Part shown: in pieces, positions 5,325 through 41,603 of the stretch
Layout of the letters: each line of letters starts with the position of its first letter
How positions within the stretch are numbered: the first letter of the stretch is position 1
Assembly: GCA_945878775.1 (NCBI GenBank)
Contig: CAMCUQ010000005.1
Location: 1 to 45,751, forward strand
Length of the DNA stretch: 45,751 nucleotides
Direction of reading: 5' to 3'
From: Chthonomonas calidirosea
Lineage (GTDB): Bacteria; Armatimonadota; Chthonomonadetes; Chthonomonadales; Chthonomonadaceae
Made by a program: the position numbers and the translations under genes
The notes under the pieces: model-generated
Database searches by the model: none
What the model was told of the DNA's origin: nothing
What the model saw: the letters and a program-made list of their open reading frames with translations, nothing else

Positions 5325-6788
5325 ATGTCCATTTTGGGTCCCGACGGACAGCCCATTATTAGCGGTCCACAGCCCTCCAGCGAGGTGCGCCAAATGGTTG
5401 ACCAGATACAAGCCATCGCCTTGCAGGGAGGCACAGGAGTTGCCCTACAGCGTATGGTCGTTGTCTTTCAGGAGGATGTTGTCAGCGACTTCGTCCTCGC
5501 GACAGCCTGTGACCTCTTGGCAAAAGCGCAAGCAGAGCAGACGGCTCTCTGGAACCAACTGCCACTAGAGCAAAAAGCCGAGGTTCCTGCGCCTTCAGAT
5601 GAAGAGCTTCAACTCTTCCTGTACCTGCGAGAAAATACCAGTAGCCCTCAAGCCTACTACGACATCGGCACGCGATTCTTTCGCATGGGGCAGATGATCG
5701 TCTCTCGCCCCTTCTATGCCCGCGCCAAAGCACTACTCGGTAAAGAGCAGAGTGAGCTAAACCAAAATGTGAGCGTCGAACTAGCGCAAAACCTTATGGA
5801 ACTCAGCGGATACCAAGAGGCAGCCGACATCCTACAAGACCTAAACGATACGTATGGAGGTCTGCCCATTGAACTCATCCTCAAAATGACCGAGTGCTAT
5901 GCCCTCTTGCGTTCCCTCCCGGAAGCCGAAACCCTCTTTGGAATCATCACAGAAGACGCTTTGGTAAACAATCCCGCGCTCGAAGAGTGGTTTGAAGAGA
6001 CAGGCGATCTGCTTGCCCGCATCCACGATTTCGATGGTCGTGAGCAACTCGCCTTGCGTGAGTGGCACTATGTCCAAACGCGCGGCGCGATTGTTGCCCT
6101 AAATTCCGATCAGAGTATGCCCGGTGAGCGATTCGCCTTCTGCGCCCCTCCCCTTCAGGAGATCGCTCAGATTGTTGGAGTGACAGCCGCCGCGCTTGAC
6201 CAAAAAGGCTATGCCCCCAATCGGCTCCTCTGGCTTGGCGAGCGTTCGGAACCGTTGGCACGTCTCTTTGCCGAGTGGTGGGACATCGACCCTGCCGCGA
6301 TCCGTTCCTATGTACCCGGAGATAATACAGACAACGAAGACGACTTGGCACTCCTCGTCATGTCCCACTCCTACGATATTATGGCGCTCCCCAACGAAGA
6401 AGCCGTCTTTGAACTCTATGAGGCAAAAGCGGGTCTCATTACCTTCTCCTTCAATCTTCAATGGACAGAGCGACAGGCAATCACTCCCGATATCGTCGGA
6501 TTGTTGTCCCAATACTGCTACCTGCCTTGGGAAGCGACTGTCGCCATAGACAATCAGGGCGGCGTGAGCGTCACCCCCATTGAAACGGCTCCAGATGCCA
6601 AAGCCCTCGCAAAACAAATGGCAGCCCTTTTCCCCTCCGAACAAGATTGTGACCAACATGCCCAACGGCTCTTGGAAACCTATGCCGGTTGCACCGATCT
6701 GATTCTCGATCATCGTGACGGCGAACTGTACCGCAAATCCCTGGTGACACATTCGCCCATCCCAAGCCCTCAAATCGCCTTTAACTAA
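5325..6788 (+). CDS. TPR-like repeat-containing protein of unknown function
   Basis: 487 aa, co-directional and 5 nt after rsmE; helical repeat-like segments (YYDIGTRFFRMGQMIVSRPFYARAKALLG). Confidence 0.75.
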   Translation: MSILGPDGQPIISGPQPSSEVRQMVDQIQAIALQGGTGVALQRMVVVFQEDVVSDFVLATACDLLAKAQAEQTALWNQLPLEQKAEVPAPSDEELQLFLYLRENTSSPQAYYDIGTRFFRMGQMIVSRPFYARAKALLGKEQSELNQNVSVELAQNLMELSGYQEAADILQDLNDTYGGLPIELILKMTECYALLRSLPEAETLFGIITEDALVNNPALEEWFEETGDLLARIHDFDGREQLALREWHYVQTRGAIVALNSDQSMPGERFAFCAPPLQEIAQIVGVTAAALDQKGYAPNRLLWLGERSEPLARLFAEWWDIDPAAIRSYVPGDNTDNEDDLALLVMSHSYDIMALPNEEAVFELYEAKAGLITFSFNLQWTERQAITPDIVGLLSQYCYLPWEATVAIDNQGGVSVTPIETAPDAKALAKQMAALFPSEQDCDQHAQRLLETYAGCTDLILDHRDGELYRKSLVTHSPIPSPQIAFN

Positions 6789-26299: not shown

Positions 26300-27280
26300 A
26301 TGCCTGAACCGAACCCATCACCGCAGGTGCTTTGCGCCGGTATCCTTGTCGCCGACATCTTTGTTCCACCCATGCCTAGCCTCCCAGCGTCGGGAGAACT
26401 ACGTGCCACCGAAGACTTTTTGCTAGAAACAGGGGGTTGCGCCGCCAATGTAGCCACAAGCCTCACACGCCTTGGGGTTAGTGCCGCCGTTAGTGGCGTG
26501 GTCGGAACCGATGTTTTTGGTGATTTTTTGATCAACGAACTTACAGAAAAAGGGGCAGATACCTCTGGAATTCGACGCACCCCCTATTTTGGAACCTCCA
26601 AAACAGTGGTTCTCCCCGTCATTGGAGATGACCGCCGTTTTATTCATACCTTCGGTGCAAACAACGATTTCAATGAGAAAGACATTGCTCTCGATACCCT
26701 TGAGGAAGGCAGCGTCCTCTATCTTGGGGGGTTGCTCATCATGCCTGCCCTCAAAAGCGAGGGAGTCGCGCGTCTTTTTGAAGCGGCACGTTCCCGTAGA
26801 ATCACGACGGTACTGGATGTGGTGGTTCCCATAGGAGATGCCTCCGAAGCAATGGAGTACCTTCGCCCAATACTCCGCCATACCGATCTCTTCATGCCAA
26901 ACGATGAAGAGGCACACTCCTTAACGGGAGAGGAGGAGGTAGAGAAGCAGGCAGATGCCTTCCTGAAGGCAGGATGTACCACCATTATCATCACTCAAGG
27001 CGTGAAAGGAACCCTCCTCAAGAACAAAGAGGTCGCCCTCTATGCCGACACCTACCCGATAGAATTTGTCGATGGCTCCGGGTCTGGTGACGCTTTTGCC
27101 GCAGGATACATCACGGGTTTGGTGGAAGGGTGGGATTTGAAACGGACTCTCACCTTTGCCAGCGCTATAGGTGCGTCGGCTTGTACCCAACTGGGCTGTA
27201 CGCCGGGAGTGTTCAACCGAGAACAAGCGCAGACAATGATGAGTGAATATCTTCTTAACATTCCAGAAAGAACGAATTAG
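26300..27280 (+). CDS. PfkB-family carbohydrate kinase
   Basis: ETGGCAANVATSLTRLGV and C-terminal DGSGSGDAFAAGYITGL; 326 aa. Confidence 0.92.
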   Translation: MPEPNPSPQVLCAGILVADIFVPPMPSLPASGELRATEDFLLETGGCAANVATSLTRLGVSAAVSGVVGTDVFGDFLINELTEKGADTSGIRRTPYFGTSKTVVLPVIGDDRRFIHTFGANNDFNEKDIALDTLEEGSVLYLGGLLIMPALKSEGVARLFEAARSRRITTVLDVVVPIGDASEAMEYLRPILRHTDLFMPNDEEAHSLTGEEEVEKQADAFLKAGCTTIIITQGVKGTLLKNKEVALYADTYPIEFVDGSGSGDAFAAGYITGLVEGWDLKRTLTFASAIGASACTQLGCTPGVFNREQAQTMMSEYLLNIPERTN

Positions 27281-27302
27281 CCCACCGTTCGCCGAACTCA
27301 AC

Positions 27303-27346
27303 AAAAGCCCTCTGCTACTCCATTTTCAGAGCAACAGAGGGCTTTT
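27303..27346 (+). terminator. Intrinsic terminator after the PfkB kinase
   Basis: AAAAGCCCTCTG...CAGAGGGCTTTT, a 12-bp perfect stem ending in U-rich sequence. Confidence 0.85.
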
Positions 27347-27439
27347 GCATTGCCCCACCTAAAAGACCCCTCCCCCTCCTGATTTCAAAACAACACCCCT
27401 CCTCGAAGACAAGATTCACGTATAAACAAAAAAAGAGGG

Positions 27440-27468
27440 TTGACATCTTGTTAGTATGTGTCTATAAT
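27440..27468 (+). promoter_or_regulatory. Perfect consensus sigma-70 promoter for the aldolase/SDR gene
   Basis: TTGACA (27440-27445), 17-nt spacer, TATAAT (27463-27468). Confidence 0.9.
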
Positions 27469-27485
27469 AAACTTATTGACCATAC

Positions 27486-27509
27486 GTTCACCACTTGAAC
27501 ATTTGTTCA
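27486..27509. promoter_or_regulatory. Candidate sugar-regulator operator just downstream of the predicted TSS
   Basis: GTTCA-CCACT-TGAAC (27486-27500) overlaps TGAACA-TT-TGTTCA (27496-27509). Confidence 0.5.
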
Positions 27510-27534
27510 CACTAAGCGAGACTTGGAGCCGACA

Positions 27535-29589
27535 ATGCAAAACCTATGGAATGAGAGCGATGCCTCTAGCCTTACGCCCATCGAGCAACTGACGTATATG
27601 TCGCGCCTCATTGGAGCCGATACAAGTCTTGTGGTTTGGGGTGGAGGCAACACCTCCCTCAAGCTTTGGGAAGAGGATTTTCGTGGTAGAGCTACCTATG
27701 TGTTGCGGGTAAAAGGCAGCGGCTCCGACCTTAAAACCATTGAACGCAAACACTTCACGGGGATACGAATGGACGACGCTATCGCAGTCGAATCCCGTGA
27801 AGATATGACAGATGATGAAATGGTAGCCTACCTCGCCCTCTGTCAGACCAGCCACACAGACCCCAGAGGCTCCATAGAGACCCTACTCCATGCTTTCCTA
27901 CCTGCCACAGCCGTTGCCCACAGTCATGCAGATGCCATTGTTGCCCTCTGCAATAACACGCGGGGCGCGGAGGCAGTGCGCGAAGCATTGGGGGAGAGTG
28001 TCATACAAATCCCTTACCGTCGCCCCGGTTTTCTGCTCTCAAAAGAGGTGGGAGCCGCAGTCAAAGAGAATCCTCATGCGACAGGGCTTGTACTGATGAA
28101 TCATGGGCTGATCACTTGGGGGGAGACTTGCAAAGAGGCGTATGACAGACACATCACGCTTACCAACCTTGCTGAGGAGTACCTCGCGAAGCAGCGACTA
28201 GGAAAAGCGGTTTTTGGAGGGATACAAGTCGCTCCGCTCACAGAACAGCGTCGGCATGAGATAGCATCCGCCATTGCGCCTCTCCTTCGGGGTGCTATCA
28301 GCGTTCCAAAGCGGATGCTCTTACGGTACGAAGATTCAAAAGAGGTACTTGATTTCGTGGGTTCCGAACAAGCCTCGCGCGTCTCACAAATCGGTGCAGC
28401 AACCCCAGATCATATTCTCAGCACGAAGATACTTCCGCTCTTCGTGACCGTCACGCACCCAGAGGACGAGGCTCATGTGGCACAGTGCATTCGAGAATCG
28501 GCGCAAGAGTGGCGTGATCGCTATGCCGCCTATTTTGAGCGCAATCGCAAAGACCAAAAGAGCCTCGATCCGACTCCCCGTGTCGTTTTGATCCCTGGGC
28601 TTGGAATGTGGACAACGGGCAAAGACCTGAAGACGGCACAGATTCCGGCAGACATCTATCGACACACCATGCAGATCATCGCAGACGCAGAAGGGGTATC
28701 AGGATACAAGACCCTCTCGGAACCAGATGGTTTTGACGCGGAATATTGGGGGCTTGAACTGTACAAACTGACTCTCGCACCTCCCGAAAAAGAGCTGGCG
28801 CGACGTGTCGTGATGGTGACGGGCGCGGCAAGTGGTATCGGACGCGCTATCGCCGAAAAGTTTGCTCAGGAGGGGGCGCATGTGGCTATCTGCGATCTCA
28901 ATGAAAGCGATAGCCAAGCCGTTGCCGATGCCATCAACAAGAAACAAGGCTCCCTTTGCGCGATAGGTATCGCTATGGATGTGACGCAAGAGAGTGCCGT
29001 TCAGCAGGGCTTTGCAAAAGTCGCATTGGCATTTGGTGGCTTAGACATCGTTGTCTCCAATGCGGGCATCGCCCCGACGGGCAAGATCGAAGCTCTCTCT
29101 TTGGAGACATGGGAGCGCAGTTTTGCCGTGAACGCAACGGGACACTTCTTGGTAGCACGGGAGGCGGTAAAGGTGCTTCGCGCTCAAGGGTTGGGAGGGA
29201 GCATTGTCTTTAATGTCACCAAAAATGTCTTTGCCCCCGGCGCAGATTTTGGAGCCTACAGTTGCGCGAAGGCGGCGGAGGCACAACTCGCTCGTATACT
29301 CGCAATAGAAAACGGCGTCTTCGGAATTAGGGTGAATATGTTGAACCCCGATGCGATCTTTGAGGCGGGGCTATGGACTCCAGAGCTGAAAGCGGAGCGG
29401 GCAAAAGCGAAAGGTATTCCGCTTGAGAGTTTTGAGCAGAGCATTCAGCAAGGCAACCTTCTCAAAGCAAAGGTGACCGCGCAAGATGTGGCGGAAGCCG
29501 CGCTCTTCTTTGCCTCAGAGCGTAGCGCGAAGACTACAGGAGCCGTTTTGCCCGTCGATGGAGGGCTACGAGACGCTTTTCCCCGCTAA
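27535..29589 (+). CDS. Bifunctional rhamnulose-1-phosphate aldolase / short-chain dehydrogenase (RhaD-SDR fusion)
   Basis: N-terminal class II aldolase/adducin domain (AHSHADAIVALCNN, MNHGLITWG); C-terminal SDR (VTGAASGIGRAIAEKF, VSNAGIAP, AYSCAK). ATG 27535 preceded by GGAG; the supplied ORF starts upstream at TTG. Confidence 0.9.
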   Translation: MQNLWNESDASSLTPIEQLTYMSRLIGADTSLVVWGGGNTSLKLWEEDFRGRATYVLRVKGSGSDLKTIERKHFTGIRMDDAIAVESREDMTDDEMVAYLALCQTSHTDPRGSIETLLHAFLPATAVAHSHADAIVALCNNTRGAEAVREALGESVIQIPYRRPGFLLSKEVGAAVKENPHATGLVLMNHGLITWGETCKEAYDRHITLTNLAEEYLAKQRLGKAVFGGIQVAPLTEQRRHEIASAIAPLLRGAISVPKRMLLRYEDSKEVLDFVGSEQASRVSQIGAATPDHILSTKILPLFVTVTHPEDEAHVAQCIRESAQEWRDRYAAYFERNRKDQKSLDPTPRVVLIPGLGMWTTGKDLKTAQIPADIYRHTMQIIADAEGVSGYKTLSEPDGFDAEYWGLELYKLTLAPPEKELARRVVMVTGAASGIGRAIAEKFAQEGAHVAICDLNESDSQAVADAINKKQGSLCAIGIAMDVTQESAVQQGFAKVALAFGGLDIVVSNAGIAPTGKIEALSLETWERSFAVNATGHFLVAREAVKVLRAQGLGGSIVFNVTKNVFAPGADFGAYSCAKAAEAQLARILAIENGVFGIRVNMLNPDAIFEAGLWTPELKAERAKAKGIPLESFEQSIQQGNLLKAKVTAQDVAEAALFFASERSAKTTGAVLPVDGGLRDAFPR

Positions 29590-29732
29590 TTTTGCAAATT
29601 GAGAAGGGTGATTCGAGGAGTACGCGGAAACATACAGGAGTGATTTGTGCTTTCGTCTTTCTGAGCAAGGGCTTTTGGCACAAAACCTATTTTCTACTGT
29701 AGAGACGCGCAAGAACGCGCAAAGAGGGGCAT

Positions 29733-30713
29733 ATGCCACAATCAGAACAGGATACCAGTGGAAATATCGAACTGCTAACCCGTATCGCCTCTCTCTACTA
29801 CCTTGATAACCTGACGCAAGCAGAGATTTCTATTCGGATAGGACTTTCGCGTATCAAAGTGGTTCGGCTCCTGAAGAAAGCGAGAGAACTGGGTATTGTG
29901 GAGATACGCATCCATACCCCTGCCGTGCTACGCACCTCGTTAGAGACCGCCCTGATACGCAAATTTGGGCTACAGCAGGTTCTACTCGTTGCAGATCAGG
30001 TGAGTGAAGAGAACCAAAGGGAGTTGACGGCACAGGTCGCCGCAACGCAACTGGACAGGCTCCTACAGGAGGGCGATAGGGTTGCCATTGGTATGGGGCG
30101 CAATGTCGGAGCCGTTCCCTATGTGCTTGGTACAGTCACTCCTCGCAAGTGTGTCTTTGTAACCGCCATTGGAGGATCGCCTCTGGTGGGTCAACCCATC
30201 AACTCGGCAGACATTTGCCGTCGTTTGGCAGAGCGTTTTGGTGGCACCAGTGAGTGCCTTTATGCACCCGCCTACGTGGAAAGTCCAGAATTGCGCGAGT
30301 CGTTTTTGCGCCATGAAGAGGTGCAAAGCGTTCTCGATAACGCACGCCATGCGCGTCTTGCCCTCGTCGGCATTGGTGACGCAAAGAACCAAAGTGCCGT
30401 TGTCAAGATGGGCTGTTTTTCAGAGGTAGATATGGCACGATTGCGTGATGCAGGAGCGGTGGGCGATATTCTCGGTTACTTTTTTGACAGAGAGGGACGC
30501 CCCATAGGACCCGGCATGAATGAGCGGGTTATTAGCGTCAGCGGAGACGATCTACGCTCTATCCCATGCGTGATCGCCGTTGTGGCAGAAAGTGAAAAGA
30601 CAGCGGCTCTTCTGGGGGCACTACGCGCAGGTCTGCTCAACGTTTTGATCACAACCGTTGGTAATGCTCGCCGTCTGCTGGAGATGGATGCCCCTGCAAC
30701 GATAGCGGTGTAG
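29733..30713 (+). CDS. SorC/DeoR-family sugar-binding transcriptional regulator
   Basis: IASLYYLDNLTQAEISIRIGLSRIKVVRLLKKARELGIVEIRI HTH followed by a SorC sugar-binding domain; 326 aa. Confidence 0.92.
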   Translation: MPQSEQDTSGNIELLTRIASLYYLDNLTQAEISIRIGLSRIKVVRLLKKARELGIVEIRIHTPAVLRTSLETALIRKFGLQQVLLVADQVSEENQRELTAQVAATQLDRLLQEGDRVAIGMGRNVGAVPYVLGTVTPRKCVFVTAIGGSPLVGQPINSADICRRLAERFGGTSECLYAPAYVESPELRESFLRHEEVQSVLDNARHARLALVGIGDAKNQSAVVKMGCFSEVDMARLRDAGAVGDILGYFFDREGRPIGPGMNERVISVSGDDLRSIPCVIAVVAESEKTAALLGALRAGLLNVLITTVGNARRLLEMDAPATIAV

Positions 30714-30802
30714 CTGTGTGGAGAGGCTGGAGGATCATACCATGCTAGCCCTCAAATCTGCCCAATAACCTTCATTTCAAACAGAAAGAACGATAGAATT
30801 CG

Positions 30803-31696
30803 ATGCCACTCGATTCGATGCTTACAATGATGCGCCACGCCAAACAGGGGGGCTATGGTCTCGGCTATTTTGAAGCGTGGGATGCCTACTCTATGGAGGC
30901 AGTTCTCGAAGTTGCAGAAGAGGAATCCTCCCCCATTATCTTGGGCTTTGGGGGAATGATGCTCGACTCTGAATGGCTAGATGCTAGCGGAGTTGAACTC
31001 CTCGGAGCCATTGGGAGCCACTATGCCCGCAAGTCACGAGTTCCCGTTTCACTCATTCTAAACGAAGCACAAACCCTTGAGCAGACACTTCAGGGGATCG
31101 ATTCAGGGTTTAACGTGGTGATGCTCGATACCTCAGCTTGGGAGTGGGACAGAGCAGTGGAGGCGGTTTCAGAACTAGCAAAAATCGCTCATGAACGGGG
31201 CGTAACGGTAGAGGCAGAGCTAGGACGCCTCCCCGACGCCACCACCGAAGGAATAGACGACACCACTGCCTTCCTCACCGATCCTTCTGATGCCCAGAGC
31301 TTTATTGAACTCACAGGAGCAGATTGTTTGGCAGTCTCAATAGGGAATGTACACCTACTCACCGCCCATGATGCCCCGGTGAATATGAATCACCTTCGCG
31401 CAATCCATGAGCGTGTCTCTATCCCCTTAGTGATCCACGGCGGAACCAGTTTCCCTGCCGCTAGCGTTGCAGAAGCGATTCAATACGGCGTCGCGAAATT
31501 CAATGTAGGAACCACCCTCAAAAAGACCTTTACCGAGGCAATTCGGTGCGAGGTTGCTGATTGGTCCCCGAATGTAGATGTCCACGAAATCTTGGGTTCT
31601 CACAAAGAGCGTGATCTCATGGTGGTTGGCAAACGCGCCATGAAGGAGAGAGTGCGAGAGTTGTTATGCCTTTATGGTAGCAACGGTCGCGCATAA
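30803..31696 (+). CDS. Class II fructose-bisphosphate/tagatose-bisphosphate aldolase paralogue lacking the canonical DH motif
   Basis: VEAELG, TDPSDAQSFIELTGADCLAVSIGNVH, PLVIHGGTS and AKFNVGT align with GatY-like aldolases. The LDHx segment reads LNEA. Confidence 0.85.
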   Translation: MPLDSMLTMMRHAKQGGYGLGYFEAWDAYSMEAVLEVAEEESSPIILGFGGMMLDSEWLDASGVELLGAIGSHYARKSRVPVSLILNEAQTLEQTLQGIDSGFNVVMLDTSAWEWDRAVEAVSELAKIAHERGVTVEAELGRLPDATTEGIDDTTAFLTDPSDAQSFIELTGADCLAVSIGNVHLLTAHDAPVNMNHLRAIHERVSIPLVIHGGTSFPAASVAEAIQYGVAKFNVGTTLKKTFTEAIRCEVADWSPNVDVHEILGSHKERDLMVVGKRAMKERVRELLCLYGSNGRA

Positions 31697-31708
31697 TTTG
31701 GGAAAGGA

Positions 31709-32707
31709 GTGACCCCCTTGACGGTCGCAACAAGAGAAAATGAATCCCGCACAGACCTTCTGAACCTCTATCGGGAGATGCTTCTCATTCGTCGGTTTGA
31801 GGAGAGGTGTAATGCCCTCTTTCTACAGGGCAAGATTCCCTCAACGCTTCACCTCTATATAGGTCAAGAGGCGGTGGCGGTGGGCGTCTGTGCCGCACTC
31901 CGCCCAGACGACTATGTTCTAGGAACCCATCGCCCTCACGGTCATGCCCTCGCAAAAGGGGTTACCCCTCATTCGATTATGGCGGAACTGTATGGCAAAG
32001 TGACGGGCTGTTGCAAGGCAAAAGGGGGGTCGATGCATGTCGGCGATATGTCTGTTGGGATGTTCCCCGCCATTGCTATCGTCGGAGCAAATGCCCCTAT
32101 TGCAACGGGAGCCGCCCTTTCCGCGAAGATGCGCGGATCGGGACAGGTGGTGGTTGCGTTCTTTGGGGAGGGTGGTTCCAATGAAGGAGCCGTTCATGAG
32201 GCGATGAACATGGCGGCGATTTGGCGTCTCCCCGTCCTTTTCGTCTGTGAAAACAATCTTTACGGCGCATCTACTCCCGTCAACCAGATAGTGGCGGTGG
32301 AAAATGTGGCGGATCGGGCTGTTGCCTATGGGATGCCGGGCGTGATTGTGGAGGGAAACGATGTCGTTGCCGTCCGAGAAGCGACTCGCACTGCCGTAGA
32401 AAGAGCGCGAGCAGGAGAGGGACCCACTCTTATAGAGTGCAAAACCTATCGGCTCTGTGGTCACTCACGAAGCGACGCTTGCAACTATCGTACCCGCGAG
32501 GAAGAGGCAGAGTGGCGAGACAAAGAACCCCTCACTTGGCTGGCAAGAGTACTCATTGAGGAGAGGCAACTCGCCACTCCTAGTGACCTAGAGCGCATAG
32601 AGGCAGAAGTAGAGGCGGTAATGCTGGAAGCGATTGCGTTTGCAGAAGAGAGTCCGGAGCCTAAACCCGAAGATGCACTCCTTCATGTCTTTTGGGAGGA
32701 CAAATAG
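31709..32707 (+). CDS. Thiamine-pyrophosphate-dependent 2-oxoacid/acetoin dehydrogenase E1 alpha
   Basis: LIRRFEERCNALFLQGKI, GGSMHVGD, FFGEGGSNEGAVHEAMNMAAIWRLPVLFVCENNLYG and RLCGHSRSD. The exact start is uncertain. Confidence 0.93.
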   Translation: MTPLTVATRENESRTDLLNLYREMLLIRRFEERCNALFLQGKIPSTLHLYIGQEAVAVGVCAALRPDDYVLGTHRPHGHALAKGVTPHSIMAELYGKVTGCCKAKGGSMHVGDMSVGMFPAIAIVGANAPIATGAALSAKMRGSGQVVVAFFGEGGSNEGAVHEAMNMAAIWRLPVLFVCENNLYGASTPVNQIVAVENVADRAVAYGMPGVIVEGNDVVAVREATRTAVERARAGEGPTLIECKTYRLCGHSRSDACNYRTREEEAEWRDKEPLTWLARVLIEERQLATPSDLERIEAEVEAVMLEAIAFAEESPEPKPEDALLHVFWEDK

Positions 32708-33721
32708 ATGCCCGTTATGACCATTGCAGAGGCTCTGCGTGAGGGTATTCGTGAGGAGATGCGGCGCGATCCCACCGTGTTCTGCTTGGGTGAGGACATT
32801 GGGATTCCGGGCGGGTTTGGAGGCGCGTTCACGGTCACATTGGGGCTATCGGACGAGTTTGGGCATGATAGGATACTGGATACTCCCATCTCGGAGATAG
32901 GCATTGCGGGGGTTGCTATCGGGGCAGCAATGACGGGTATGCGCCCCATCGCCGACGTGCAGTATGGGGATTTTCTCTTTTGCATGATGGATCAACTGGC
33001 GAATCAAGCCGCGAAAATGACCTATATGTCTGGTGGAACGGTCAAAGTTCCTCTCGTAATGCGTGCGCCAGTGGGTTCTACCCGACGCGGTTCACAGCAT
33101 GCCCAGAGTCTGGAAGCCTTTTTCACCCACATTCCGGGTCTTAAGGTGCTGGCTCCCTCCACAGCATACGACGCAAAAGGGCTATTGAAGAGCGCCATTC
33201 GCGATGAAAACCCTGTGCTTATCTTTGAACACAAACTGCTTTATGGAAGCAAAGGGGGACGCTCTGAAAAGGGTGCATTGACCGCTGTGGGCGAGGTTCC
33301 CGATGGCGATTACGTGGTTCCTATCGGTAAGGGAATCGTGCGGCGTGCGGGCAAAGATGTGACCATTGTCGGCAAACTCCTCACGGTGTACCGTGCGCTT
33401 GGAGCAGCAGACGAGTTGGCACAAGAGGGTATTGAGGCGGAGGTCATCGATCCACGAACATTGATCCCCTTAGACAAAGAGATCATTCTGGAGTCGGTTC
33501 GCAAAACAGGCAGATTAGTCGTCGTGGAAGAAGACAATATCACGCACGGTTGGGGTGCAGAGATCGCCGCCATGGTGGCAGAAGAGGCGTTCTTCTATCT
33601 GGACGCACCGATCAAGCGGGTTGCGGCTCCCGATACCCCTCCCCCCTTCGCGCCCCCGATGGAAGAGTTCTATGTGCCGAGTGTGGCGCGGGTTGTTGCC
33701 GCCGTCAAGTCGCTTTTCTGA
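32708..33721 (+). CDS. 2-oxoacid/acetoin dehydrogenase E1 beta
   Basis: VFCLGEDIGIPGGFGGAFTVTLGL, DTPISEIGIAGVAIGAAMTGMRPIADVQYGDF and VVVEEDNITHGWGAEIAA. Confidence 0.95.
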   Translation: MPVMTIAEALREGIREEMRRDPTVFCLGEDIGIPGGFGGAFTVTLGLSDEFGHDRILDTPISEIGIAGVAIGAAMTGMRPIADVQYGDFLFCMMDQLANQAAKMTYMSGGTVKVPLVMRAPVGSTRRGSQHAQSLEAFFTHIPGLKVLAPSTAYDAKGLLKSAIRDENPVLIFEHKLLYGSKGGRSEKGALTAVGEVPDGDYVVPIGKGIVRRAGKDVTIVGKLLTVYRALGAADELAQEGIEAEVIDPRTLIPLDKEIILESVRKTGRLVVVEEDNITHGWGAEIAAMVAEEAFFYLDAPIKRVAAPDTPPPFAPPMEEFYVPSVARVVAAVKSLF

Positions 33722-33730
33722 GGAGAGAAC

Positions 33731-34819
33731 ATGTCTGTAAATGTGGTTGTTCCCCCGCTAGGCACAACGGTAGACACGCTCACCCTGATCGCTTGGTATA
33801 AGCAGGAGGGGGATTTTGTACAGAAGGATGAGCCGCTCTTTGTGGTAGAAACGGATAAAGCGACTCTCGATGTAGAGTCGCCTGCTTCCGGTATTTTGCA
33901 AAAAGTGAGCGCAACGGCAGGAGATTCTGTCAATGCCCTGAGTCGGATCGCGGTTATTTTGGCGGAGGGTGAATCGCTCACCGAGGCAAAGCCCACACTC
34001 TTGGTAGAGAAACCGGTGGCGACGCCAATACAGGCACCCAAACCTGCCCCTGCTCTTGAACAGCGTAAACTTTCGTTGCCACGTCGCATATTCATCTCGC
34101 CACGGGCAAAGCGTTTGGCAGAGACGAGTCAGCTTGCTTGGCAAACTATCGTTGGCACAGGTCCCGAAGGCGCGGTTGTGGAGCGGGATGTGCGTGCGGC
34201 ACTCAGCAAGCCCCAATCTGCGGTGACCCCGATTACGCTAACGACGGAAACCGATGCCACCGAGTTGGTTGCCCTACAAGCCAGACTAAGGCAAATGGGT
34301 GTTACCGTCTCCTACGACGATCTGCTCTTGTTGATTCTGGTACGTGCCTTGCGAGAGCATCCCAAAATGAACGCCTCTTTAGAGGGCAACACCGTGACGC
34401 ATTGGGAAGCGGTTCATATCGGAATGACGCTAGAGGTTGAGGAGGATTTGCGCCTTGTTGTGCTAAGAGATGCGGATCAGAAGGGCTTGAAAGCACTGGC
34501 GCAGGAGACAAATGCCCTAAAGAGAAATGCCGAAGCCGGCAATATTTCCCCAGATCAATCACAAGGAGCCACCTTCGCCATTACCAATCTGGGAACCTTC
34601 GGAATAGATGCTTTCACGCCTGTCATTCCCCTCCCTGCCTGTCCCCTCTTGGGAGTAGGACGCATCAAACAAGAGAATGCAGGTGACAAGGCGACACAAA
34701 GGCATAATATGTGGATCAGCCTCTCCTTCGATCCGCGTCTTGTGCGTGGAGTATTAGGAGTACGCTTCTTGCAGTGCGTTGCAGAGTACATTGAGACACC
34801 CACGCTCGCGCTGATCTAG
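33731..34819 (+). CDS. 2-oxoacid dehydrogenase E2-like protein (lipoyl + PSBD + acyltransferase-like domain, catalytic motif substituted)
   Basis: Lipoyl site VVETDKATLDVESPASG; PSBD ISPRAKRLAE...GTGPEGAVVERDV; C-terminal LSFDPRLVRGVLGVRFLQ where DHRxxDG is expected. Confidence 0.88.
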   Translation: MSVNVVVPPLGTTVDTLTLIAWYKQEGDFVQKDEPLFVVETDKATLDVESPASGILQKVSATAGDSVNALSRIAVILAEGESLTEAKPTLLVEKPVATPIQAPKPAPALEQRKLSLPRRIFISPRAKRLAETSQLAWQTIVGTGPEGAVVERDVRAALSKPQSAVTPITLTTETDATELVALQARLRQMGVTVSYDDLLLLILVRALREHPKMNASLEGNTVTHWEAVHIGMTLEVEEDLRLVVLRDADQKGLKALAQETNALKRNAEAGNISPDQSQGATFAITNLGTFGIDAFTPVIPLPACPLLGVGRIKQENAGDKATQRHNMWISLSFDPRLVRGVLGVRFLQCVAEYIETPTLALI

Positions 34820-34856
34820 TTTTTCGCTTACGCTAGGAGCAAAGGAACGCAAATCG

Positions 34857-36839
34857 ATGAAGACTTGCCATGATCTATCGACACTAAACTGGTCACTTTC
34901 GGGCTGGACGCCCCATCTTTGGCGACTGATGCAGACGCTAGAGATAGGCGCAGTCAGTTCCGCCGAATTTCAGGCGATTCCCGCCCCTGTCCCCGGCTCT
35001 GTCCAACGCGCCCTACAGGAAGCAGGACTCTTACCAGACTGGAATCTAGCAGAGGTTTCGCGAGAGTGTGAGTGGGTAGAGAATCGGCATTGGAGTTATG
35101 AGACTCTCCTGCCAGACACCCTGTTCTCGGCAGGAAAGCGGTTTCGGCTCCACTGCGAAGGGTTGGACTATAACGGTTGGGTCTTTTTAAATGGAGTGGA
35201 GATCGGTGCTTTTTGTGGAACCCACGTTCCCCACACCTTCGATCTCACTCCTCACCTCAAAGAGACGAATAACCTCCTGCGTATCATCTTCGATCTGCCT
35301 CCGCGTTGGCTTGGGCAGTTTGGCTTCACCTCACAGGTTCGGGAGTGGAAGACGCGCTTCAATTATGCATGGGACTGGATACCCCGTTTCGTACAACTAG
35401 GCATTTGGGACGCCCTTCGGATTGAAGTAACTGAAGGCAGTGAGCTCGAGGAAGTGCGTTGCACCACAGATGCCGATATCAGCTCTGGAACCGGAGTTCT
35501 GCGAGTAGCAGGACGCGCAGTCTCTTCTAGCACAGATCGGCTTCAGCTGACTCTTTCAAAGGGAGAGAGGCAAATTCGCGAAGAGACCCTCCCGGCAGAG
35601 ACGTTTCAAACCCTCGGTTTCGCATGGCAGAGTCTCCCCATCGCGCTTTGGTATCCTAATGGAGAGGGAGAACAACCCCTCTACACCCTCACACTCACGC
35701 TTTTGAACTCGGCAGGAGAGGTGCAGGATAGTGAGACCCGCCGGGTTGGATTTCGGCATATCGTGTGGGAGTCTTGTGAAGGGGCTCCAGAAAACGCCGA
35801 TCCTTGGATTTGTGTCGTCAACGGAAAGCGCGTCTTTTTGCAGGGGGTCAACTGCCCTCCCATGCTCCCAAACTATGCAGATACGCTCCCAGACGCCTAT
35901 CAAAAACGGCTTGCGCTCTATCGTGATCTCGGTGTGAACACCCTGCGTGTAAACGGTTGTGGGTTTCTGGAAAAAGAGGTGTTCTACGACTATTGCGATG
36001 AAATGGGACTGATGATCTGGCAGGACGTTCCCCTATCCTCGTCTGGTATCGATAACGTTCCCCCCGATGATCCCCTTTCCATTGCGGGCGTGAGCGCGAT
36101 CCTTCGCTCCTTTATATTGCGTCGCCAACATCATGCCGCGCTTCTTCTCTGGTGTGGAGGCAATGAACTCCATTCCCGCTCTCCCGAAGGTTACGGCGTT
36201 CCCATGACGACAGCACATCCCCTCATTGGACGCCTCGCCGAAACAGTGAAAGAGTACGACCCCACCCGCAGATTTCTGCCCACAACGGCGACGGGTCCCC
36301 GCTTCTATGCCGACGCAAAAGACTTTGGCAAGGGACTACATTGGAACACACATGGACCTTGGAAATTGTGGGGGAGTATGGAGGCTTGGCAAGAGTATTG
36401 GCACGCAGACGATGCCCTATTCCGCGCGGAAACAGGTGCGCCGGGAGCTTGCAACGCCGATATTATTCGCCAATATGCTGGAGAGTATGATCCCATGCCC
36501 ATCACGGACACAAGTCCAGTATGGCGTCGCCCACTCACATGGTGGGTTGAGGTTGGGGCTTTCAAAGAAGAGTTTGGGAGAGAGCCAAATACCCTCGAAG
36601 AGTATGTGGAGTGGAGTCAAGCCCGTCAGGCAGAGGCGTTGCGTATCGCTGTGCAAGCCTGCAAAGACCGCTTTCCGCGCTGTGGTGGGATACTCCTGTG
36701 GTGTGGGCACGATTGCTATCCCTGTTCTGCAAACACCAGTATCATCGATTTTCATAATAACCCCAAACCTGCGGCGTTGGCACTTCAGACGGTATGGAAA
36801 AGCCCTGCGGGACAAGGAGAAGCACATCATGGGGAGTAG
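34857..36839 (+). CDS. Glycoside hydrolase family 2 protein (beta-mannosidase-like)
   Basis: GH2 layout (VPGSVQRALQEAGLLPDW, LHCEGLDYNGWVFLNG), acid/base LLLWCGGNELH, nucleophile region FRAETG. No signal peptide seen. Confidence 0.85.
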   Translation: MKTCHDLSTLNWSLSGWTPHLWRLMQTLEIGAVSSAEFQAIPAPVPGSVQRALQEAGLLPDWNLAEVSRECEWVENRHWSYETLLPDTLFSAGKRFRLHCEGLDYNGWVFLNGVEIGAFCGTHVPHTFDLTPHLKETNNLLRIIFDLPPRWLGQFGFTSQVREWKTRFNYAWDWIPRFVQLGIWDALRIEVTEGSELEEVRCTTDADISSGTGVLRVAGRAVSSSTDRLQLTLSKGERQIREETLPAETFQTLGFAWQSLPIALWYPNGEGEQPLYTLTLTLLNSAGEVQDSETRRVGFRHIVWESCEGAPENADPWICVVNGKRVFLQGVNCPPMLPNYADTLPDAYQKRLALYRDLGVNTLRVNGCGFLEKEVFYDYCDEMGLMIWQDVPLSSSGIDNVPPDDPLSIAGVSAILRSFILRRQHHAALLLWCGGNELHSRSPEGYGVPMTTAHPLIGRLAETVKEYDPTRRFLPTTATGPRFYADAKDFGKGLHWNTHGPWKLWGSMEAWQEYWHADDALFRAETGAPGACNADIIRQYAGEYDPMPITDTSPVWRRPLTWWVEVGAFKEEFGREPNTLEEYVEWSQARQAEALRIAVQACKDRFPRCGGILLWCGHDCYPCSANTSIIDFHNNPKPAALALQTVWKSPAGQGEAHHGE

Positions 36840-37614
36840 ATTAAGTAAGGCACAGGTCGCCTCCTATCAAGAGGATGGCTACCTTATCATCAAGGAGCCT
36901 GTATTGCCACTTCCTCTCTTCGAGAAGCTAAAAGCACTCTCTACCGAGAAGTTTGCCGAGTGGGCAGAGAAGCGTGACGGGGTTGCGCCCTCACTCATTG
37001 ACTGCCCACATTGGAGCGATACCCGCCTCTTCGAGTATCTTCTTGCAGACGAAATACTCGATATTGTGGAGTCACTCATTGGACCCGACATCGCCATATT
37101 CGCCTGTCACTTTTTGCAGAAGCCGCCACAGGTTGGCAAGCGGGTTCCGTGGCATGAGGACTCCGCCTACTGGAAGGGGCGAATGGAGCCGATTGAAGTC
37201 GCCTCAATTACGATTTCGTTGGAACCCTCCACCAAAGAGAACGGCTGTCTCTGCGTCTTGCCCGGTACACACCGCCACGGCTATTCCGACTATCTGCCCG
37301 TCTCCGATCCCTCCGCGCAGGTCTTCCCTATCGAAGTTCGCCCAGAGCAAATGGATGAATCGCGCGCGGTCTCCATTGAGCTGGAGCCAAACCAAGCCTC
37401 GTTTCATGAGGGGCGAATTATACACGGTTCCGAGCCGAATCTGGGGACATTAGGGCGTAGCGCATTCACCATCCGCTACTTTCCCACCACCGTGAAGTTC
37501 ATCTCAGAGAAAAACCCGAATTTCCAAATCTATTTGGCGCGAGGGGTAAATAAAGCAGGGAACCCCTATAGCGATCCAACAAAGACCTACCCCCCTGCGG
37601 GCGTGATTGCATAG
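36829..37614 (+). CDS. Phytanoyl-CoA dioxygenase (PhyH)-family Fe(II)/2OG oxygenase
   Basis: MGSRLSKAQVASYQEDGYLIIKEP; HxD in VPWHEDSAYW; distal HGSEPNLG...R. Start set at 36829 (overlapping the GH2 stop); the supplied ORF extension to 36307 overlaps GH2. Confidence 0.88.
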   Translation: MGSRLSKAQVASYQEDGYLIIKEPVLPLPLFEKLKALSTEKFAEWAEKRDGVAPSLIDCPHWSDTRLFEYLLADEILDIVESLIGPDIAIFACHFLQKPPQVGKRVPWHEDSAYWKGRMEPIEVASITISLEPSTKENGCLCVLPGTHRHGYSDYLPVSDPSAQVFPIEVRPEQMDESRAVSIELEPNQASFHEGRIIHGSEPNLGTLGRSAFTIRYFPTTVKFISEKNPNFQIYLARGVNKAGNPYSDPTKTYPPAGVIA

Positions 37615-37701
37615 ATACCGTGTGGTATTGAGGGGGGCGCATGATGACGCAAACCAGACAGGCATACCCTCTCTTTGAAAAATGCTTGACCTATCTTTCT
37701 G

Positions 37702-37709
37702 AACCGGTT
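37702..37709. promoter_or_regulatory. AACCGGTT palindrome upstream of the GH38 gene
   Basis: Context TTCTGAACCGGTTTGAGG, just upstream of the RBS. A similar GAACTGGT occurs in the regulator promoter near 40398. Confidence 0.25.
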
Positions 37710-37724
37710 TGAGGAGAGAATACG

Positions 37725-40265
37725 ATGTCGAAACTCACTGTTCACTACATTTCCCATACACACTACGACGCAGAAGTCTTCCTAACGCGAGACGAGACGT
37801 TTGAGATCGGTTATTCGGTGCTGTTTGGTGCTCTCGCGGCGATGCGAACCGACCCGAAATTCAAGTTTGCACTGGATCAGACCTGCTATATTGAACCGTT
37901 CCTGCGAACCTACCCCGAGGAGCGTCCCTTCTTTGAGCAGATGATCGCTGAGGGACGACTGGAGATCACCTGCGGAATGCACGCCATGCCGGATGTGAAT
38001 ATCCCCTCTGGAGAGTCCTTCATTCGGCAGGTCATTGCGGGTAAAGCGTGGTGCGAAAAGGAGTTGGGAGTCGATGTGCGTAGTGGTTGGCTTCTCGACA
38101 CCTTTGGGCAACACCCTCAGATTCCGCAACTGATGGCAAAGTGTGGCTTCGACTACAACGTCTTTCAGCGTCTCGGCTCCTATGATGGACATACCGAATA
38201 CTGGTGGAAAGGGCTAGACGGAACTCAGCTCTTTTGCCACTGGATGCGCTCCACCTACTGCGTCCTGTACTATGCGCCGGGCAACCTTCACGAGTTCAAA
38301 AAATTCGTCGATACGCGTCTCACCGAGCTAAAGAAGCACGCCCTCACCCCCCACCTCCTTGCCATTAGTGGCGCAGACTTGAGCCACATTCAACCGAATA
38401 TTACACAACTCTTTGAAGAGTACAATCGCACCTATGACGACGTAGAGCTTATTGTCTCGACCCCCAAAGAGTATTTTGACCTCGTAAAGACGCTTGCCGA
38501 CTTTCCCGTTTGGGAAGGCGACCTCAATCCCGTTTTTCAGGGCTGTTATAGCGCACGGATCGCCGTGAAGCAGTGGAACAGACGCGTGGAGACAGAACTC
38601 GTCATTGCAGAGATGGCAGACGCTTTTGCCGTAACCCTCGGAAACGCCTCTCAAGCAAACCAACTCGCGCAGACGTGGGAGCCTGTCCTCTTTAATCAGT
38701 TCCATGATATAATCTGTGGTTCCCATGTGGACAAAGTCTATGTCAATACCATAGATAGATACAAAGCCTCCCATGTTCGAGCAAGCGTGTGCCTTGAGAG
38801 TTCTCTCGATGACATTCTGAAGGATATTGACACTTCTGGTGATGGAACCCCCATAGTGGTCTTCAACACCCTCAGTTGGGACAGAAACGACGTGGTAGAG
38901 TGCCGTGTGGGCTTCTCGGAGAAAGATGTTTTTGAGGTTGAAGTTCGTGATTCGTGTGGTAATCTAGTGCTGAATGACCTCTTGGCGTGTGAGCGATACG
39001 AGACGGGAGGCATCAAGCGTGCCACCGTGCTATTTATAGCCAAAGGGGTTCCCTCCGTGGGATATGAGGTGTACCGAGTCCTACGCGCCACAGGCTCCTC
39101 TGCTCCATCGACATTGAAAAGCAATCAGCCCCAAGTCTGGATGGCAGACATCCATACCGACATTATCGAGAACGAGTACTTCAAGATCGAGATCGACGCC
39201 TGGAACGGTGCTATCAAGAGCCTTGTCAACAAATCCACCGATTGGGAGATCATACCCACAGATAAGCCCTATGGAAACACGTTTGTCAAGGAACTCGATA
39301 ATGGCAACTTCTGGGAGTACAACGGACACTGTAAAGGCGACGCGCTCTTCCCCATGAATCGGGATCATCCACTGCCCACAGAGGGCGACGCCCGTGCTTC
39401 CTTCTCACACCACTACGGAGGAGATGGACGCCTCACCAATGGACAGGCGCATACAGACTACAACGTCAATTTTGCCTATGGAAAGGGGTTCTTCGCGACC
39501 CGAATTCGGCTCTATTCCGGCTTAAACAGGATCGATATTCACACCAAATTGATCAACGAGGATGAGCGGGTACGGTATCGCATGGCACTGCCCACTACCC
39601 TGCAAGGGGGCAAGATTACCCAAGAGATTCCCTTCGGAGCCATTGAACGCCCAAAAGGAGAGTTTCCTGCCCAAAACTGGATGGACTATAGCGACGACAA
39701 ACAAGGAATCGCTGTCCTCAATCGGGGACTACCAGGCAACAATGTGGATGGGGATGTCCTACTGCTCTCCGTGCTCAAGTGTACTGCATTGAAAGAGGGC
39801 TATGGAGAGGGCGTCGGAGGCTTTAATCGTGGAACCAAAACTACAGATGGTTATGAGCTAGGGGTACAACACGAGTTCGACTACGCCTACGTGCCTCATG
39901 CGGGTGACTGGAAAGAGGCGCAGATCGTGCGGAGGGGCATGGAGTTCAATCAGCCTCTGCTGGCACGCAAAACCACACACCACACAGGCAAACTCCCTCA
40001 ACGTCAATCTCTGTATAATCTTTCAGTAGATCATGTCGCGCTGACTGCCGTCCGAAGCACGCCACAGGGTACAGTCATTCGGCTCTATGAGACACAAGGC
40101 AAGCCCTGCTCCGCCGTGACGCTTCGATCCGCATTTCCATTTGTTTCGGCAGAAGAGACGAATCTGATAGAAGCGGAAGGCGTTGCAGTCGCTTCCCAAG
40201 GTGATTCTCTCACCTTTTCAATCGACGCTTTTGAGATAAAAACCTTTCTGCTAAGAGACTCGTAG
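37725..40265 (+). CDS. Glycoside hydrolase family 38 alpha-mannosidase
   Basis: HYISHTHYDAEVFLTRDE N-terminus; nucleophile region SGWLLDTFGQHPQIPQLMAKCGFDYNVFQR; C-terminal GH38 beta domains; 846 aa. Confidence 0.9.
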   Translation: MSKLTVHYISHTHYDAEVFLTRDETFEIGYSVLFGALAAMRTDPKFKFALDQTCYIEPFLRTYPEERPFFEQMIAEGRLEITCGMHAMPDVNIPSGESFIRQVIAGKAWCEKELGVDVRSGWLLDTFGQHPQIPQLMAKCGFDYNVFQRLGSYDGHTEYWWKGLDGTQLFCHWMRSTYCVLYYAPGNLHEFKKFVDTRLTELKKHALTPHLLAISGADLSHIQPNITQLFEEYNRTYDDVELIVSTPKEYFDLVKTLADFPVWEGDLNPVFQGCYSARIAVKQWNRRVETELVIAEMADAFAVTLGNASQANQLAQTWEPVLFNQFHDIICGSHVDKVYVNTIDRYKASHVRASVCLESSLDDILKDIDTSGDGTPIVVFNTLSWDRNDVVECRVGFSEKDVFEVEVRDSCGNLVLNDLLACERYETGGIKRATVLFIAKGVPSVGYEVYRVLRATGSSAPSTLKSNQPQVWMADIHTDIIENEYFKIEIDAWNGAIKSLVNKSTDWEIIPTDKPYGNTFVKELDNGNFWEYNGHCKGDALFPMNRDHPLPTEGDARASFSHHYGGDGRLTNGQAHTDYNVNFAYGKGFFATRIRLYSGLNRIDIHTKLINEDERVRYRMALPTTLQGGKITQEIPFGAIERPKGEFPAQNWMDYSDDKQGIAVLNRGLPGNNVDGDVLLLSVLKCTALKEGYGEGVGGFNRGTKTTDGYELGVQHEFDYAYVPHAGDWKEAQIVRRGMEFNQPLLARKTTHHTGKLPQRQSLYNLSVDHVALTAVRSTPQGTVIRLYETQGKPCSAVTLRSAFPFVSAEETNLIEAEGVAVASQGDSLTFSIDAFEIKTFLLRDS

Positions 40266-40382
40266 CCTCTAAACTGCATGGTGAAGCAATCTCTAAAGGA
40301 GGAGTCGCAAAACCCAAAACATCTTTCGCGAAAAATATCTACGTGAAAGGTGTTCCTGGATCAAAAATCGAAGATAAGCCCC

Positions 40383-40410
40383 TTGACAATTGGTACGGAA
40401 CTGGTATACA
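40383..40410 (+). promoter_or_regulatory. Sigma-70-like promoter of the GntR-LacI regulator
   Basis: TTGACA (40383-40388), 16-nt spacer, TATACA (40405-40410). The spacer/-10 carry TGGTACGGAACTGGTATACA. Confidence 0.75.
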
Positions 40411-40442
40411 CTGCACATATAAAGAGAATTTAAGGATAGTTC

Positions 40443-41603
40443 ATGCCAAGCCGTTCGGAAGCACCTAGAATACGCACGCTTATGTATGTGCAGATAGCAC
40501 ATCATATTCGTGAACGCATCTTAGACGGCAAATATCCTGCAAACTCTCTCCTTCCCTCTGAGCGCGAATTGGCACAGGAGTGGAAGGCAAGTCGCCAGAC
40601 TATTCGCCTCGCCCTAGAGCAGTTACGCCAAGAGCAAATGGTCAGCTCAGAACAGGGACGAGGAAACCGTGTACTTTCCCAAGAGCTAATCTTCGATAGT
40701 GCCACGGAGGACGACTCCTCTTCTAAGTTGGCAGCTTTGGTGATCTATGATGTGACTCATGGGGGCGCAATGGCGATCTGCCAAGCGGCAGCGGCAGCGA
40801 TGCAGGTTGAAGGCTATCACCTGATCGTTGCAGAGACAGCTCCACAGTCGAACCGACGGGCAGAAGACGAAGCGCAACAGATTCGCTCTCTCATTGATAA
40901 AGGAATTCGCGGGCTAATCATCTACGCAGAGCCAACAGATAGAAACCGTGCCCTGCTCGAAGAGGCTCTAGACAAAGGGATTCAAGTGGTACAGATCGAC
41001 CGCTACCTCACGGGGCTACCCTGCGATCATGTGGGAGTGGAGAACGCGCTAGCCTCTGCGGAGATCACAGAACACCTTTTGACGTTGGGACATCGCATAA
41101 TCGGATTTATCTCGTTTACGCAGTCTGCATCTACCTGCCACGAGCGTTTCCAGGGCTACTGCTCTGCCCTAACACGAAATGCCATACCAGTCACGGAAGA
41201 CATCATCGGTTATTACGATACCAATGGCGAAAAGTTGGAAGAGATACGCTCCATTATTCAACAATGGCAAGCACTCACGGAACCACCCACCGCCATTTTT
41301 GCCGTAAATGATGAACTCGCATTCGATATGCTACAGGTTTTGGCTACTCTTCAGATTTCTGTGCCGAGCCAGATCGCAGTTGTGGGCTTTGACAATCTTC
41401 CTGCGGCTAGTCTCGTATCCCCTCCCGTCACGACGGTAGCACAACCGTTTCAGGATCTGGGGTACACCGCAGCCCAGTTGCTCTTGAGCCGAATGCAACG
41501 CAAATTTGGAGGACATCCTCGGCGCGTTCTGCTCCCTACTCAACTTGTTGTACGGCAGTCTTGTGGCACGCTTCTCGTACAACCCCAACCCATTTTGGTT
41601 TGA
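40443..41603 (+). CDS. Transcriptional regulator: GntR-type HTH fused to LacI-type sugar-binding domain
   Basis: N-terminal QIAHHIRERILDGKYPANSLLPSERELAQEWKASRQTIRLALEQL (GntR HTH); C-terminal periplasmic-binding-like domain with HLLTLGHRIIGFIS and VVGFDNLPAASLVSPPVTTV. Confidence 0.92.
   Translation: MPSRSEAPRIRTLMYVQIAHHIRERILDGKYPANSLLPSERELAQEWKASRQTIRLALEQLRQEQMVSSEQGRGNRVLSQELIFDSATEDDSSSKLAALVIYDVTHGGAMAICQAAAAAMQVEGYHLIVAETAPQSNRRAEDEAQQIRSLIDKGIRGLIIYAEPTDRNRALLEEALDKGIQVVQIDRYLTGLPCDHVGVENALASAEITEHLLTLGHRIIGFISFTQSASTCHERFQGYCSALTRNAIPVTEDIIGYYDTNGEKLEEIRSIIQQWQALTEPPTAIFAVNDELAFDMLQVLATLQISVPSQIAVVGFDNLPAASLVSPPVTTVAQPFQDLGYTAAQLLLSRMQRKFGGHPRRVLLPTQLVVRQSCGTLLVQPQPILV

Follow-up and report, generated by a model that had tools for sequence, protein, structure and literature searches.

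The window – the whole 45,751-nucleotide stretch of DNA analysed here – encodes, within a sugar-related locus, an E2-like component of a 2-oxoacid dehydrogenase complex whose acyltransferase site appears to have been lost, and which is probably an E2-derived, lipoyl-bearing adaptor or scaffold that no longer performs its own acyl transfer to CoA and leaves completion of the reaction to another E2 or another acceptor. Homology to E2 acyltransferases is present over the catalytic domain, where Pfam 2-oxoacid_dh (PF00198) matches residues 153–361 at 4.1e-46 and covers profile positions 15–231 of 232. Residues 331–340 read LSFDPRLVRG where an E2 usually reads xSxDHRxxDG, and PRLVRG stands in place of the catalytic HxxxDG motif. 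An earlier sequence-only reading had reported that the catalytic His is replaced by Pro (CCG at 34733–34735) and the motif Asp by Arg (CGT at 34745–34747), with the lipoyl site ETDKATLDVES and the subunit-binding domain intact; all of this was confirmed, the last point by a Pfam E3_binding match at residues 120–155. The gene and the parts of its product are as follows.

33731–34819, plus strand: E2-like protein of 362 aa, with lipoyl domain, linker, subunit-binding domain and truncated catalytic domain
33743–33958, plus strand: lipoyl domain, residues 5–76 (Pfam Biotin_lipoyl, 3.4e-15)
33857–33859, plus strand: lipoyl-lysine K43, in the ETDKA motif that is invariant in the altered clade
34088–34195, plus strand: peripheral subunit-binding domain, residues 120–155 (Pfam E3_binding, 4.3e-08), 61–71% identical within the clade
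34205–34231, plus strand: junction without strand A and helix H1 of the catalytic domain, nine residues here (alignment, models)
34226–34816, plus strand: remaining catalytic (CAT-like) domain (Pfam 2-oxoacid_dh, 4.1e-46; Foldseek matches to E2 cores)
34730–34750, plus strand: altered active-site motif DPRLVRG for DHRxxDG (sequence, alignment)

The same loss recurs in related species. A family search recovered orthologues that are 63% (G001), 59% (G002) and 47% (G005) identical to the window protein, together with a fragment in G003 (56%), and the corresponding motifs read DPRLVRA in G001 and G003, DPRLVGS in G002 and DPSKIRA in G005. The catalytic His is Pro in all five orthologues of the clade – compared with His in 30 of 30 aligned canonical E2s – and the motif Asp is Arg or Gly in the five altered species, which span two genera; in these five the loss is fixed. 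All altered E2s retain the Asp that precedes the lost His, and four of the five the Arg that follows it, while no replacement His is conserved near the motif in the clade, the sole invariant His of the catalytic part (H229) lying far away in the sequence.

Gene order is shared too: E1beta and E1alpha adjoin the altered E2 in all of these orthologues' loci, and an aldolase–E1alpha–E1beta–E2 operon is common to the altered species, the aldolase being present wherever the contig reaches (the G003 locus is split over two contigs, and the G001 contig ends after E1alpha). A PfkB kinase gene lies upstream in G002, G003 and G005; in G004, which belongs to the same genus as G005, no gene of the altered-E2 type was found. 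The incompleteness of the source assembly (65%) might have suggested a sequencing or assembly error, or a mutation confined to one strain, but the recurrence of the loss in five species, in separate assemblies and with conserved synteny, refutes this and leaves it a vanishingly small probability. A pseudogene is ruled out by the open reading frames and by the presence of the same change in five species.

The lesion also exceeds the motif to which it had initially been ascribed, as the catalytic domain is truncated in addition. In the alignment, the distance from the subunit-binding domain to the strand TPITLTTE is 6–11 residues in the four complete altered E2s, compared with at least 32 in every other E2 read, and the deleted stretch contains the first strand (beta-A) and helix H1 with its invariant R..IA motif. 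AlphaFold models give the E2 of G021, from a sister family, a strand at 182–187 and a helix at 191–201, and the window E2 neither of the two, with the other main elements kept (mean pLDDT about 80); what the window protein retains is therefore short of a complete core with the H1 lipoyl-docking helix. The lipoyl domain of E. coli E2p docks onto H1 and the N-terminal stretch (PMC8421416). Every altered E2 differs at four residues that 30 of 30 canonical E2s share – A274 to Thr, G280 to Asp, H378 to Pro and D382 to Arg or Gly (G021 numbering) – and G383 is changed in all except the window E2, while N255, G329 and D377 are retained wherever covered. As far as sequence can tell, the deletion of H1 makes real acyltransferase activity less likely, and it may also weaken trimer formation.

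Intact orthologues point to the origin of this state. In the same order, G021 carries PfkB, PhyH, aldolase, E1alpha (76%), E1beta (89%) and an E2 with TFDHRLVDG; related clusters occur in G027 and G024, and the syntenic orthologues of the sister family retain DHRLVDG. A tree of 36 E2s places the altered proteins in a single clade (100/100) nested in the active orthologues, next to G021 (89/88), with orphan, PDH-type and OGDH-type E2s clustering apart from it. Because the altered E2s make up one clade inside intact orthologues, the tree indicates that the catalytic site was lost in a single event, from an active E2 of the same operon. Canonical orthologues, which the earlier reading would have taken as a sign of a strain mutation or an error, do exist, but in the sister family, and the loss belongs to a lineage rather than to a strain.

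Constraint is unevenly distributed over the protein. Within the altered clade, the lipoyl domain is 68–82% identical, the binding domain 61–71% and the catalytic domain 38–61%, the last being the fastest-changing folded domain; catalytic minus lipoyl-domain identity averages −27 points, compared with 0 to +11 in four other E2 groups. Across the altered species, E1beta is 90–96%, E1alpha 79–87% and E2 46–63% identical, and the omega of E1beta is about 0.02 (such ratios being rough, with synonymous sites near saturation); this degree of E1beta conservation implies that the operon is in use. For the close pair G001/G003, the omega of the catalytic fragment is about 0.3, a value based on about nine amino-acid changes, compared with 0.02–0.04 for canonical E2s over the same stretch and 0.13 for GH2. 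Judged by these sequence comparisons, the catalytic domain is relaxed, yet not free of constraint. As a separate observation, the window E1beta (32708–33721; L037, L038, L039) is, at 90–96%, unusually conserved in comparison with its operon neighbours and also with the housekeeping E1beta, which is 81–95% identical among the same four species.

The genes surrounding the altered E2 are the following.

26300–27280, plus strand: PfkB sugar kinase, conserved operon partner
27523–29589, plus strand: bifunctional aldolase/short-chain dehydrogenase (RhaD-like)
29733–30713, plus strand: SorC/DeoR-type sugar-responsive regulator
30803–31696, plus strand: class II (FBA/tagatose type) aldolase, conserved operon partner
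31709–32707, plus strand: E1 alpha, PDH-like (Pfam E1_dh, 3.3e-91)
32708–33721, plus strand: E1 beta, 90–96% identical across species with the altered E2
34857–36839, plus strand: GH2 glycosidase (beta-mannosidase-like), directly downstream of the E2, syntenic in G001, G002 and G003

The nearest solved structure to the window E1alpha is human PDH E1alpha. As claimed earlier, this is the sole E2 of the cluster and no E3 is adjacent to it; among the annotated operon genes, no candidate acceptor enzyme (thioesterase or phosphotransacetylase) was recognised. The stretch 26300–41603 as a whole has the look of a sugar locus, with PfkB, the RhaD-like aldolase/dehydrogenase, the SorC regulator, the class II aldolase, E1/E2 and GH2, followed by a PhyH dioxygenase, a GH38 alpha-mannosidase and then a GntR/LacI-type regulator. 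PhyH is shared with the G021 operon, and a DUF4432 protein occurs in the G027 cluster. An inositol pathway was considered and rejected, the PfkB kinase scoring best to IolC at half of the cut-off (150 vs 300), and a 266-aa gene in G021 that had been suspected to be IolB is the PhyH dioxygenase.

Both a second canonical E2 and lpd, which the sequence-only reading had proposed to look for in the genome, were found: the source assembly (65% complete) holds two canonical E2s away from the altered-E2 cluster and an lpd, likewise elsewhere (G000:C53; 544 bits, cut-off 408.8). A search of the genome contigs matched distant canonical E2s only. Relatives (G001–G006 and G015; L041–L045, L048, L049) have an orphan canonical E2 of about 460 aa with LSFDHR and no E1 gene seen beside it. 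Two further observations concern other E2-like genes: at L050, positions 5364–6344 (G001:C327), an E2-like ORF carries an interrupting TGA within the homologous stretch, which may reflect an assembly frameshift of the OGDH-type E2, and the canonical-type E2s at L018, L019 and L015 read DHRxTNG, with Asn for the motif Asp. The E2p of A. vinelandii likewise carries Asn at that position (PMC9681731).

That the genome has canonical E2s and an lpd at other sites supports the role that we favour, that of an adaptor cooperating with a canonical E2. The neighbouring PDH-like E1alpha/beta would load the lipoyl arm from a sugar/aldolase-pathway product, the subunit-binding domain would recruit E1 and the genome's shared E3, and the remaining CAT-like domain would serve assembly only. 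Transfer of the acyl group to CoA would then most likely take place in the active site of a canonical E2 from the same cell, either the PDH-type one or the orphan known from relatives, which could share a mixed core with the altered E2 or act in trans. The sequence-only reading had offered two possibilities, a lipoyl-carrier or E3BP-like E2 and delivery of the acyl group to a non-CoA acceptor; what they have in common, that the acyltransferase site is gone but the lipoyl and binding domains remain, is strongly supported by the five species, the deletion of H1 and the inverted conservation of the domains.

Three other accounts of the operon have to be weighed against this one. The altered E2 might still catalyse acyl transfer to CoA, either at a low rate or through a rebuilt site, in what would be an ordinary, if slower, dehydrogenase. 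In E. coli E2o, substitutions of the catalytic His375 leave 2% (Ala), 13% (Gly) or 60% (Trp) of the activity, the His variants together spanning 0.5–60%, Asp379Ala leaves 9.5%, and the Asp before the catalytic His is important (PMC5986005). As these variants are active and the Asp before His is kept here (FDPR), residual acyl transfer is possible; the Arg retained in four of the five altered E2s and the strong constraint on the operon fit it as well. What makes a working transferase unlikely nonetheless is that the losses include His, the motif Asp and helix H1 as well as further invariant residues, that the clade has gained no conserved His near the motif and that constraint on the catalytic domain is relaxed.

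Alternatively, the acyl group might leave the lipoyl arm for something other than CoA, through hydrolysis to the free acid or transfer to phosphate, another thiol or a protein, which would make the complex a CoA-independent 2-oxoacid dehydrogenase, with E1 loading the arm and the acyl group released to water or a dedicated non-CoA acceptor. Conservation of the lipoyl domain and E1 beside a vanished CoA-transfer site, in an operon without a second E2, would suit such a scheme, but the annotated operon genes include no recognised acceptor enzyme and the cell has canonical E2s, and we regard both the route and the kind of complex it implies as doubtful. The E2 might also be vestigial, in a complex running without E2 chemistry and with E1 as a decarboxylase or ligase; it does change fastest among the operon genes compared, but an open ORF in four complete copies, the identity of the lipoyl (68–82%) and binding (61–71%) domains and an omega below 1 even for the catalytic part make decay distinctly improbable. 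The adaptor reading remains the one we prefer.

Compared with PDH-type dihydrolipoyl acyltransferases (PF00198), the window E2 shares domain order, fold and an operon with E1alpha/beta, and differs in having Pro for His and – across the clade – Arg or Gly for Asp, in the deletion of strand A and H1 and in its fast-evolving catalytic domain; D-H-R is described in a recent structural study as conserved across all E2 sequences (PMC8421416). A search of the open-licence literature found no report of an inactive bacterial E2, which is weak evidence of absence. GcvH and LbpA are single-domain lipoyl carriers, and a carrier mode is possible for the window E2 too, which differs from them by its subunit-binding domain and its mostly preserved CAT-like domain.

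The closest known parallel is eukaryotic E3BP (protein X, PDHX), which is likewise derived from an E2 and combines lipoyl and subunit-binding domains with a CAT-like domain, one that is inactive in E3BP and predicted from its residues to be inactive here. In fungi, the E3BP version of this domain has a partial E2 fold and attaches to the E2 core (PMC7494870, PMC10156792). The window E2 matches human PDHX at 5.4e-39, and Foldseek also matches the modelled core of PDHX. Shared descent is not what the tree – built without eukaryotic E3BP – points to, the nearest relatives being E2s from operons in the same order whose site is intact; the window protein is bacterial, of independent origin from an operon E2, and encoded beside its own dedicated E1, which it would also serve, with no partner E2 adjacent. 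The literature presents E3BP as a gene of eukaryotes (PMC10156792). Because of its descent from a bacterial operon E2, and with E3 specificity and co-assembly being putative features, we do not file the window E2 as an E3BP; we infer instead a bacterial analogue, in architecture and presumed logic. A carrier or scaffold role known until now chiefly from a eukaryotic protein would probably occur in bacteria as well, where the active orthologues from the same operon provide a natural before-and-after pair, and the role of an E2 without acyl transfer becomes testable with ordinary proteins.
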